DNA of 64,000 nucleotides. Source: Senegalia massiliensis. Its GTDB lineage: Bacteria; Bacillota; Clostridia; Tissierellales; SIT17. Of this stretch, positions 6,128 through 12,113 are shown in pieces. Numbering within the stretch: the first letter of the stretch is position 1; each line of letters begins with the position of its first letter. Made by a program: the position numbers and the translations under genes. Location of the stretch: positions 436,023 to 500,022 of the forward strand of contig NZ_LR130785.1 in NCBI RefSeq assembly GCF_900626135.1. Reading direction: 5' to 3'. A model generated the notes under the pieces. The model saw only the letters and a program-made list of their open reading frames with translations, was not told the origin of the DNA and ran no database searches.

Positions 6128-6592
6128 TCATACTCTTCGTATTGGGAAAAAAATATATCCTTGTCCATCTTCAGGACAGGTATAATCATGAACTGCACCT
6201 ACAAGTTTGATATTGTTTTCTTTCAAATACTCTATAACTTCTGTAAATGTATTTTGACTTTCATTCTTGACATAAATATACTCATATGATGGAATTGTCC
6301 ATTTCATCCAACCTTGTGGTGCTTGAGCATTGTCCATAACCTCAACACCTGCAAGGTAAAGTCCTTTTGTGAAATTATCCTCCCAAGGATTAAAGGAACG
6401 GGATAAATCGGACATTGCACCCCATATTCCAAGAAGATTTCCACTTTCATCTTTCTTCGCTAATGGTGACACTTCTGCAAAATTAGAATTAGCATCAGCC
6501 CATAATTTCTGAATAAAACCTTTTCCTTCATTTGTAGAACCTTCTTTACCTATGACTGAAAATGATTTTTTTATGCACTTTGTTATTTCCAT
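6128..6592 (-). CDS. GyrI-like / AraC-type effector-binding domain protein
   Basis: The 154-residue single-domain protein matches the effector-binding domain seen in GyrI, BmrR and Rob: an FxxxxG-like region early, Y(L)AGVEVMD in the middle, WMKWTIPSYEYIYV near residue 100, and DYTCPEDGQGYIFFPI at the end. Such stand-alone domains bind or hydrolyse small toxic molecules or modulate partners; which one applies here is unknown. The start follows GGGAGG 8 bases upstream. The gene is a little richer in G and C than its surroundings and lies between two mobile-element remnants, so acquisition by transfer is likely. Confidence 0.75.
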   Translation of the reverse strand: MEITKCIKKSFSVIGKEGSTNEGKGFIQKLWADANSNFAEVSPLAKKDESGNLLGIWGAMSDLSRSFNPWEDNFTKGLYLAGVEVMDNAQAPQGWMKWTIPSYEYIYVKNESQNTFTEVIEYLKENNIKLVGAVHDYTCPEDGQGYIFFPIRRV

Positions 6593-7039
6593 ATTTCAAA
6601 CCTCCCATTATATTAAAGACTTTATGTTTGTATTTAATTATACATCATATAATTTTATAATTACAAATATTTTACATTAGTTATATATATTGCTCCTCTA
6701 AACCTAAAATCCTTTAATTTTGTGCGAATTTAATATAACCCTTATCAGTAAAAGTCTTTTGGCAGGAGTTACAGATATATCTTTGATTTCCGTTATACTT
6801 CTCATTTCTGGATATTTTATTATGTTCATAATGAGGCAGACTTTCCCCCTTGAAAATCTGTTTTCCTTAACTTCATTTGTATAGTCTTATTATAACTAAT
6901 TCTACAGGTTATAATAAAACTTCAGCACAGTTGTTTAATATAGCCTTTATTTTAAACATAAAAACCCTACTTTCTACTATTTGTATATCTAAAACTAAAA
7001 TTTTTCCTAAACTTCTATTTATTATATACTGAAATAAAC
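6593..7039. other. Decayed intergenic region with mobile-element debris
   Basis: No intact gene is seen here. The stretch 6714-6866 carries a transposase fragment on the minus strand (separate entry). From 6867 to 7039 the sequence is AT-rich with only short imperfect inverted repeats. It separates the GyrI-like gene from the ECF sigma factor remnant. Confidence 0.5.
6714..6866 (-). pseudogene. Transposase N-terminal zinc-ribbon remnant
   Basis: Minus-strand reading gives LPHYEHNKISRNEKYNGNQ followed by RYICNSCQKTFTDKGY, then a stop. Zinc-ribbon transposases of the IS1595/ISL3 kind carry CPxC...NGK..GKQRYKCK.CGKTF at this place. Here the first Cys pair is lost (LPHY) while CNSC is kept. The frame is bounded by stops and no catalytic domain follows, so this is a fragment only. 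The exact IS family is uncertain. Confidence 0.6.
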
Positions 7040-7065
7040 TGTAACTTTTTATTATTTGAAACGTT
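7040..7065 (+). promoter_or_regulatory. Likely ECF-sigma-type promoter
   Basis: TGTAAC at 7040-7045 and CGTT at 7062-7065 are separated by exactly 16 bases. This matches the Bacillus ECF pattern TGAAAC-N16-CGTC. It precedes the ECF sigma remnant, as expected for an autoregulated sigma factor. Confidence 0.55.
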
Positions 7066-7082
7066 TAATTAATGAGGAGGTA

Positions 7083-7611
7083 ATGATCTGCATAAAAACT
7101 CACTTGATTATATCTATAATAAATTTTCAAAAGATGTATATTATTATCTCCTATCATTATGTAAGGATAAGTATATAGCTGAGGATATTATGCAAGATGT
7201 GTTTTATAAGGCATATCTTTATTTTGAAGTTTGTCCATATAGTAATATTAAATCATGGTTATTTACTGTAGCAAAGAATTGTTATATTGATTATATTAGA
7301 AAGAATAAAAAGAATATCTTAAAAGAAAGTAAATATTTTGATGGAATTCAGAGTGAAAAAGATATAGAAAAAGAAATTATTAATAAAAAGAAATTATTAA
7401 TAAAAAGGAAGTAAAGGATACATATAAAGCATTAGAAAAATTATCTGAAAAACAAAGAAAAGCTATAATATTATGTGATTTTAAAGAATTATCATATAAA
7501 GAATCAGCAATTGTAATGAATATAAGTCTGAATTATTTTAAAGTATTATTATTTAGGGCAAGGAAAGCTGTAAGAGAAAATATGAAAGGGAGTGAAAAAA
7601 GTGAAAGATGA
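7083..7611 (+). pseudogene. ECF-type RNA polymerase sigma factor, frameshifted
   Basis: Region 2 is readable as FSKDVYYYLLSLCKDKYIAE, DIMQDVFYKAYLYF and SWLFTVAKNCYIDYIRK. Region 4 is readable as YKALEKLSEKQRKAIILCD, FKELSYKESAIVMN and LFRARKAVRENM. The two regions are in different frames. The cause is a perfect 17-base tandem duplication (7374-7390 and 7391-7407); removing one copy joins them as EKEIINKKEVKDTYKALEK. The start is also damaged: the region 2 frame has no ATG, and the ATG at 7083 joins it only if one A is added to the A run at 7094-7098; a CTG start at 7088, seven bases after GGAGG, is the alternative. The stop overlaps the start of the anti-sigma gene. Confidence 0.85.
7374..7407 (+). 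repeat. 17-bp perfect tandem duplication inside the sigma gene
   Basis: The unit AAATTATTAATAAAAAG occurs twice back to back. Because 17 is not a multiple of three, it shifts the sigma-factor frame and creates a stop a few codons later. Confidence 0.9.
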
Positions 7612-7783
7612 TTTCAAAGATAAATTAAAGAAATACAAAGAAGGTAAATTAAGTGATGAAGAATCAAAAGAAATTGAACAAGAATTAGATAAATTAGAAA
7701 TCTATCACGAGTTTATGAATGAAGAATTTAATGAAATAGAAGGAAAAGAATCTCAAAAAGAAGAAAGAAATTATAAAAAATAA
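7601..7783 (+). pseudogene. Anti-sigma factor, N-terminal cytosolic part of a split gene
   Basis: This is the N-terminal piece of a sigma-factor regulator: KDDFKDKLKKYKEGKLSDEE followed by an IEQELDKLEIYHEFMNEEF stretch, the helical sigma-binding domain of YhdL/RsiV-like regulators. I choose the GTG at 7601, eight bases after GGGAG; a GTG at 7592 is less well placed. It ends at TAA 7781-7783. Adding one A to the six-A run at 7775-7780 would join it to the membrane and extracellular part that follows. It overlaps the end of the sigma gene, the usual arrangement for a sigma/anti-sigma pair. Confidence 0.75.
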
Positions 7784-8739
7784 TTAAAAAAGGAAAATGG
7801 AAAGCTAGATTTAATATTGCAATTACTGCTATAGCAATTTTTATGGTTTTTAGTATAATACTTGGAATAATTACAAGTGTTTTTTATAATACTGGAAATC
7901 CTGCTAGAAGGGAGAATTATATTGATGCAATAAAATCAAGTATATATGTAACTAGACCAAATTTAAACTTTTCTTCTGTTGGAACTTCTCAAGAAAATTA
8001 CTTTACTATGAATACAGAAGGAAAACTTGAAAAGCAAGTAGGAGATGGATTTTATGATGGAGGGGAATTAGATGGAAAATTTCTATTTAATAAGGTGAAT
8101 TCAAATATTATAAAATTAGATTCAATTGAATCAATAGGTTTTATACATCCTGAGAAAAATTTAGAATATGATCCACAAAGTGATTGGGAGAAGCTTGAAA
8201 AATTGCATGAAGGAACTGTAGCAGAAGTATATGTTTCATTTGATAAATTATACAAAACAGATGAAATACTTGAAAAAATTGAGCCATCAAAATTAAATTG
8301 GCTATGGGCTGCTGTAGATATAGGAGATACAATACCTAGTGAAATGTTTTCAAATATAGGATTTCCTTCAAAACCTATGTGGAGGGAAGGAGATGGAATA
8401 ACCTATACAGAAGAAACTGAGGACACATTATTTGGTACACAAGTAGTTTCTGAATCAACATCATATTCTTCAGTAGATCCATATGGAAGTGGAAAATTAA
8501 GAGATAAAAACTTTTTAGAGACACTAGAATTTTTAAATGAATATAAAGATATAACTGGTAAAGTGGATTATACATTAGGAAAAAATATAAATAGCATTAT
8601 AAATCATATTGAAGAAAATGGAGTAAAAATATATGGTATGGTTATTACAGGACCTACTAAAGATATATTAAAGCTAAAAGAAGAAGATTATATAACAAAT
8701 ATGAGAGTGAAAGATGTAAAGCTTTGGAATCTAAATTAA
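7784..8739 (+). pseudogene. Anti-sigma factor, membrane and extracellular part of a split gene
   Basis: The frame is open from 7777 and reads GKWKARFNIAITAIAIF before the ATG at 7843, so the start at that ATG is inside the transmembrane helix and is not natural. One membrane segment (7810-7880) is followed by about 280 extracellular residues matching the C-terminal domain of Firmicute sigma-factor regulators (the VAEVYVSFDKLYKTDEI and KLNWLWAAVDIGDT regions). Its frame differs by one base from the N-terminal part. It overlaps the end of the convergent Crp gene by 9 bases. Either the gene is broken or the A run is variable. Confidence 0.75.
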
Positions 8740-10706: not shown

Positions 10707-12113
10707 CTAACTAAATACAGCCTTTTCTTGAAGAAATGCTTCAAATCCTGCAATTCCACCTTCACGACCAATTCCAGAATGTTTATATCCACCAAATGGA
10801 GCCTTGTGAGAAGCATTTCCTTCATTTACAGTAATAGTTCCTGCTTTTATTTTATTTGCGATTTCCTTTGCTTCCTTTTCAGGACCAAATACTGCACCAG
10901 CTAGACCAAATGTAGTATCATTTGCTATTTTAATAGCATCTTCCTTATCTTTATAAGTTATAATCGATAAAACTGGTCCAAATATTTCATCAGTTGCAAT
11001 GCTCATGTCATTTTTTACATCACTAAATACAACAGGACCTACATAATATCCTTTGCTATCATCCTTTGGCACTTCACCATAAATCATATTAGCGCCTTCA
11101 TCTAGGCCTTTTTCAATATATTTCTTAACTTTATCAAATTGTTTTTTACTTACAACAGGACCTACTATTTTTTCTTCACTATATGGATCGCCAAACTTAT
11201 ATTTCTTACTCATATTTACTACTAATTCTTCTATTTTTTCCTTTTCATCTTCTGGTACTAGTAGTCTTGTAAATGCACTACAAGTTTGACCGGTATTATT
11301 ATATACAGTATTTAATGTCTTTTTTATTCCAAGCTCATAATCTCCACCTTTTAGAAGTACTGCAGGAGATTTACCTCCAAGTTCAAGAGTTACTTTCTTT
11401 ATTCCATTCATTGCTGCTTCTCCTACTTTCCTACCACCTTCAACTGAGCCTGTAAATGATACTGCATCTATATCTTTATGATTTGTTATCATATCTCCAA
11501 CTTCAGAGCCTGCTCCTGTTACCATATTAAATACTCCCTTTGGAAATCCTGCCTTGTCAAAACATTCTGCTAAGGTATATGCTACAAGTGGCGTTTTTTG
11601 ACTTGGTTTTAATACTATTGTATTTCCTACAAGTAGTGCAGGAATTATCTTCTTTATAATTTGTCCAAGTGGATAGTTCCAAGGAGTAATTGCTCCAATT
11701 ACACCAAGTGGTTCTTTTCTAACTTTAAAACCATCTTTTTCTACTTCATATTCGTAATTCTTTGCTATATCCATAAAATCATCCATTACATCAATATATG
11801 GCTGAACTTGTGGATTAAGTGCAAAAGCTTTACTTCTTCCCAGTTCATCCATTATGATTCTAACCATTTCATCTTTTTTATTTTCCATTTCTTGTTTTAA
11901 TTTTCTAACTAATTCTATTCTTTTATCTAAGGCTTCATACTGCCATGTTTCAAATGCTCTTTTTGCAGCACCTACAGCTTTTTCTACATCTTCCTTATTT
12001 GAAGCAGGAACTTTTGCAATTATTTCTTTATTTGCAGGATTTTCTACTTCTATAGTTTCAGTGCTATTTGGTTCAACCCATTTTCCATCGATATATAATT
12101 TATTATAATCCAT
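10707..12113 (-). CDS. NAD(P)-dependent aldehyde dehydrogenase
   Basis: The 468-residue protein is a complete ALDH-superfamily enzyme that oxidises an aldehyde to its acid. It shows TPWNYPLGQ with the catalytic Asn at 146, FTGSVEGG at 220-227 in the cofactor site, the catalytic Glu at 244 in LELGGKSP, and the nucleophile Cys at 278 in TGQTCSA. The C-terminus has APFGGYKHSGIGREGG. The substrate cannot be deduced. It stands alone with GGAGGAATG upstream and is divergent from the histidine kinase gene. Confidence 0.92.
   Translation of the reverse strand: MDYNKLYIDGKWVEPNSTETIEVENPANKEIIAKVPASNKEDVEKAVGAAKRAFETWQYEALDKRIELVRKLKQEMENKKDEMVRIIMDELGRSKAFALNPQVQPYIDVMDDFMDIAKNYEYEVEKDGFKVRKEPLGVIGAITPWNYPLGQIIKKIIPALLVGNTIVLKPSQKTPLVAYTLAECFDKAGFPKGVFNMVTGAGSEVGDMITNHKDIDAVSFTGSVEGGRKVGEAAMNGIKKVTLELGGKSPAVLLKGGDYELGIKKTLNTVYNNTGQTCSAFTRLLVPEDEKEKIEELVVNMSKKYKFGDPYSEEKIVGPVVSKKQFDKVKKYIEKGLDEGANMIYGEVPKDDSKGYYVGPVVFSDVKNDMSIATDEIFGPVLSIITYKDKEDAIKIANDTTFGLAGAVFGPEKEAKEIANKIKAGTITVNEGNASHKAPFGGYKHSGIGREGGIAGFEAFLQEKAVFS

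Follow-up and report, generated by a model that had tools for sequence, protein, structure and literature searches.

What does it mean when region 2 and region 4 of an ECF sigma factor are encoded in different reading frames, with a short perfect repeat at the point where the frames part? The question is raised by a 64,000-nucleotide stretch of the Senegalia massiliensis genome (hereafter the window), for which an earlier note had attributed the split to a 17-bp tandem duplication and had proposed that it could be either a reversible off switch or a recent lesion.

The duplication and the divided sigma gene

The duplication is real: AAATTATTAATAAAAAG is present twice without a mismatch, at 7374-7390 and 7391-7407. 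It forms part of an array at 7368-7407 (period 17, 2.35 copies), which ranks first by TRF score (80) among 92 in the window. Shifted by 17, this array matches itself exactly over 23 bp, as against at most 13 bp in 20 first-order Markov simulations, which places it far beyond chance. The genome has few perfect duplications of comparable size: only 12 with a period of 10-60 were found in 392 kb of it, and just one of these, with a 15-bp period that is a multiple of three, exceeds a period of 12. In the window the 17-bp unit is flanked by AAAAAG at both ends, while the single-copy sequence of a sister species (G003) has AAAAAG at one end of the unit and AAAAAT at the other; beyond this AAAAAG/AAAAA microhomology, nothing is repeated at the site in the relatives. 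Such flanks are the usual trace of replication slippage, which is the probable cause here. What characterizes a pseudogene formed by slippage is found at this locus, namely a frame-disrupting duplication that is bounded by microhomology and single-copy in the related species. Taken by itself, the 17-bp duplication is an ordinary mutation of a known kind.

Its effect on the coding sequence agrees with the earlier reading, in that the duplication separates the frames of the two regions. Region 2 (PF04542, 44.8 bits) lies in the frame at 7088-7411 and region 4 (PF08281, 52 bits) in the frame at 7387-7608; these are -1 apart, so the two are not in one open frame, and they overlap at about 7384-7414. 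Both halves retain good domain scores and contain no additional stops. With TIGR02950, the NCBIfam model of the SigM family that has a curated whole-protein cut-off of 147.95 bits, they score 88.5 and 61.3 bits separately, each below that cut-off. Judged by its reading frames, the locus is a broken gene of a SigM-family member and not a working member. Additionally, the start of the gene is weakened, with CTG in the window as opposed to TTG in both relatives that keep it. Sigma factors made of two separate subunits are known in the form of SigO/RsoA; this arrangement was considered and rejected for the window, as the region 4 frame has no ATG, GTG or TTG before the middle of the domain.

Table 1. 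Features of the sigma/anti-sigma operon and their positions in the window
Feature	Position	Strand	Evidence
ECF-type promoter TGTAAC-N16-CGTTTA, 5' of the sigma gene	7040..7067	+	pattern search
GAGGAGG ribosome-binding site, followed by a CTG start codon (TTG in G002 and G003)	7074..7090	+	G003 alignment; G002 start
Sigma N-terminal fragment with region 2, stop TAA at 7412-7414	7088..7414	+	PF04542 1.1e-11; SigM family models
Site at which G003 has lost one C of a CC pair (sigma frameshift at codon 21 there); intact in the window	7150..7150	+	G003 alignment
Perfect 17-bp tandem duplication (AAAAAGAAATTATTAAT x 2.35)	7368..7407	+	repeat search; G003 single copy
Region 4 half of the sigma factor (C-terminal), in the -1 frame and lacking a usable start codon	7387..7611	+	PF08281 5.4e-14; translation
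Anti-sigma cytoplasmic N-terminal part, premature TAA at 7781-7783	7601..7783	+	ORF; alignment with the intact 379-aa G003 protein
A-run, 6 A against 7 in G003 (frameshift in the anti-sigma gene)	7775..7780	+	G003 alignment
Anti-sigma membrane and extracytoplasmic part, shifted in frame, with Sigma_reg_N and Sigma_reg_C	7786..8739	+	PF13800 6.2e-15; PF13791 1.8e-34

The operon in related species and in the wider Bacillota

The intact operon is represented by G002, named Anaeromonas frigoriresistens in GTDB and belonging to the same genus as the window. Its sigma ortholog is 167 aa long and scores 161.9 bits with TIGR02950, above the cut-off, and it is overlapped by the next gene, whose 383-aa product carries Sigma_reg_N and Sigma_reg_C. 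G003, which is ~95% identical to the window in this region, lacks the 17-bp repeat and has a whole anti-sigma gene of 379 aa, but its sigma gene is broken by a different lesion, a 1-bp deletion; a third relative, G001, lacks the operon. The comparison with orthologous loci that had been proposed as a check thus yields one copy of the 17-bp unit, not two, in both G002 and G003, the two congeners in which the gene is retained. This, together with the perfection of the array and two halves that are still good domains free of extra stops, bears out the suggestion of a recent lesion.

The damage extends to the second gene. The Sigma_reg_N/Sigma_reg_C protein encoded directly downstream of the sigma gene is intact in G002 and G003 and frameshifted in the window, the frame being broken after the cytoplasmic part and ahead of the membrane segment. 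Among 45 genes compared between the window and G003, with a median dN/dS of 0.11, this one ranks highest at 0.42, and as the value is below 1, the relaxation would be recent or partial. Only three interior gene-breaking indels occur in the 47-kb alignment of the window with G003, and all three lie inside the 1.65-kb operon; the remaining coding indels are at gene ends or compensate one another. Given the duplication, two further such indels would, by our own arithmetic, land within these 1.65 kb of the 47 kb with a probability of about 0.001.

The strict TGTAAC-N16-CGTTTA pattern occurs once per genome in G000, G002 and G003, each time at this place, and is absent from G001, the genome without the operon; similar promoter-like sequences precede the orthologs of C. 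tetanomorphum and Paenibacillus. The restriction of the pattern to the operon and the similar sequences ahead of the Clostridium and Paenibacillus orthologs suggest that the operon is autoregulated from a promoter resembling the self-recognised ECF types.

Divergence from G003 is uneven along the window. At 6300-7350 it is only about 1-2%, non-coding sequence included, as compared with about 5% on either side, which may reflect a recent recombination event between the two lineages, one boundary of which would lie close to the duplication. The aldehyde dehydrogenase gene at 10707-12113 has a dS of 0.82 against G003, where its neighbours have about 0.1-0.2, and might have been replaced by a foreign or paralogous copy. 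Further, degenerate ECF region 2 fragments amid stops are present at G000:C2:242362-242529 (L073:2363-2530) and G003:C1:32460-32627 (L074), and are a second, older sigma relic. No close paralog that would explain dispensability was found in the genome, the nearest whole ECF gene being 43% identical and having a different kind of partner.

Beyond the genus, a scan of GTDB contigs returned no relative with the anti-sigma protein as query and did find relatives with the G002 sigma factor. Whole orthologs are the majority, with roughly 110 among 380 Paenibacillaceae sampled (in-frame stops in three) and a dozen, mostly whole, in a phylum-wide sample. Broken versions include C. tetanomorphum DSM 4474, with a frameshift near codon 19 and an open anti-sigma gene, and P. 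lactis, in which the ATG start is lost ahead of a full anti-sigma frame; its relative G623 shares this ATG loss and adds a stop at about codon 129, and another Paenibacillus, G665, has a stop at codon 26, both again with a full anti-sigma frame. In a further Paenibacillus (G642) only a region 2 fragment is left. Such independently broken SigM-like loci, most with an intact anti-sigma gene, were recorded in C. tetanomorphum and several Paenibacillus at L100:2969-3484, L105 and L223, L222, L225 and L247. As broken genes are less likely to pass the score thresholds of the searches, and the window itself was picked as broken, no rate of loss is claimed; an excess of broken SigM-like genes over other ECF genes is only suggested, with few genomes surveyed in the groups around the two anaerobe orthologs.

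Probable decay of the operon and its alternatives

On this evidence we hold it to be highly probable that the window, from a bacterium of the Tissierellales, carries a SigM-family ECF sigma/anti-sigma operon recently inactivated by a slippage duplication, and that the module is dispensable in both lineages. The unit would have been duplicated when replication slipped from one AAAAAG to the other, 17 bp away, and the +17 shift would stop translation at 7414, ahead of region 4, leaving a product which, its truncation being evident in the sequence, is predicted no longer to recognise -35 elements. Since the ECF-type promoter resembles self-recognised ones, loss of the sigma factor probably silenced the operon too, and would have removed selection on the anti-sigma gene, which may then have lost one A of its homopolymer. 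The start codon would have changed to CTG by drift. In the sister species the same sigma gene was lost through a different indel, and this second loss points to dispensability in both lineages. That the sigma factor no longer functions, that the operon fell silent and that sigma was lost before anti-sigma are predictions from sequence, the last of which fits the other orthologs with a broken sigma and an intact anti-sigma gene.

The principal competing view is that of phase variation, whereby slippage between one and two copies would toggle the sigma factor in part of the population. A perfect tandem overlap of 23 bp can be lost through slippage, the single-copy state is present in the relatives, and both window indels sit in slippage-prone sequence, a circumstance that would also be compatible with the A-run having been misread or misassembled. 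However, there are just two copies, and the relatives, with one genome compared per species, have no repeat at the site beyond the microhomology. It had been proposed that deleting one copy restores a normal protein; this holds for the reading frame, but the start would stay CTG instead of TTG and the downstream anti-sigma gene would stay frameshifted, so that a change of copy number alone would not switch an otherwise intact system. Further, the sister species broke its sigma gene elsewhere, by an unrelated deletion outside any repeat. The reversible switch is hence not upheld and we regard it as improbable; three independent lesions in two species within one 1.65-kb operon look like ordinary gene decay. 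An error of assembly or sequencing, to which repeats and homopolymers are prone, is more doubtful still, as the 40-bp array is shorter than the usual read length, miscounting of a homopolymer would not insert 17 bp, and the 47 kb compared contain no other interior gene-breaking indels.

The order of events could also be reversed, with the anti-sigma gene lost first, the unrestrained sigma factor toxic, and the duplication selected for killing it. Null mutation of yhdL kills B. subtilis, where suppressors with an inactivated sigM are readily obtained (PMC6827917), and in the window both genes are indeed broken. Yet G003, C. tetanomorphum and three Paenibacillus genomes combine a broken sigma gene with an intact anti-sigma frame; sigma loss thus needs no anti-sigma loss, which argues against suppression as a general route. 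As the cytoplasmic part of the anti-sigma factor is also still encoded in the window, we consider this scenario unlikely. Hardly credible is a programmed -1 frameshift giving a full-length sigma factor from the overlapping frames: the required shift is indeed -1 and AAA AGG within the A5 run permits one-tRNA slippage, but an X XXY YYZ heptamer was not found in the overlap, neither G003 nor G002 uses the arrangement, and the G003 frameshift is unrelated.

The window operon is therefore best read as the loss of a dispensable SigM/YhdL-like module, one of a scattered set of recurrent losses, and the clustered, parallel loss is more interesting than the duplication. A conserved ECF stress module appears to have been caught in the middle of its loss, by different mutations in sister species and with lesions clustered far above background. 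G002 (intact), G003 (sigma broken), the window (both genes broken) and G001 (operon absent) offer a natural series for asking in which order sigma and anti-sigma genes are lost, and whether loss of the sigma factor is neutral or selected. A bolder extension, tentative and rather doubtful at present, is that lineages across Bacillota repeatedly inactivate their SigM/YhdL-like modules as an adaptation, the sigma gene being mutated first and the orphan membrane anti-sigma factor keeping some function of its own; the window would then represent a late stage at which the partner is going too.

Comparison with known systems

Searching the literature for tandem duplications that inactivate an ECF sigma gene yielded no relevant case, and the closest comparisons come from other directions. 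The operon resembles SigM/YhdL(K) of Bacillus subtilis in that the G002 ortholog exceeds the SigM cut-off, a membrane anti-sigma gene comes next in the operon and an ECF-type promoter lies ahead of it. Unlike that system, the window operon has two genes, with no YhdK-like third gene seen, and both are broken; further, its anti-sigma factor is assigned by Sigma_reg_N/Sigma_reg_C alone, so that orthology to YhdL is putative and inhibition of the sigma factor predicted. In the E. coli allele rpoS819, a 46-bp duplication in a sigma gene attenuates RpoS and gives a longer protein (PMC5444009). The two cases share a short duplication within a sigma gene, but rpoS819 lowers activity and can be selected, whereas the window protein is cut before region 4 and is a candidate loss for which no selection is claimed. 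The resemblance is closest to ordinary slippage pseudogenes, with a short tandem duplication arising between microhomologies and further lesions following; the window differs from these in nothing essential, and stands out only because related species lost this gene independently of one another.
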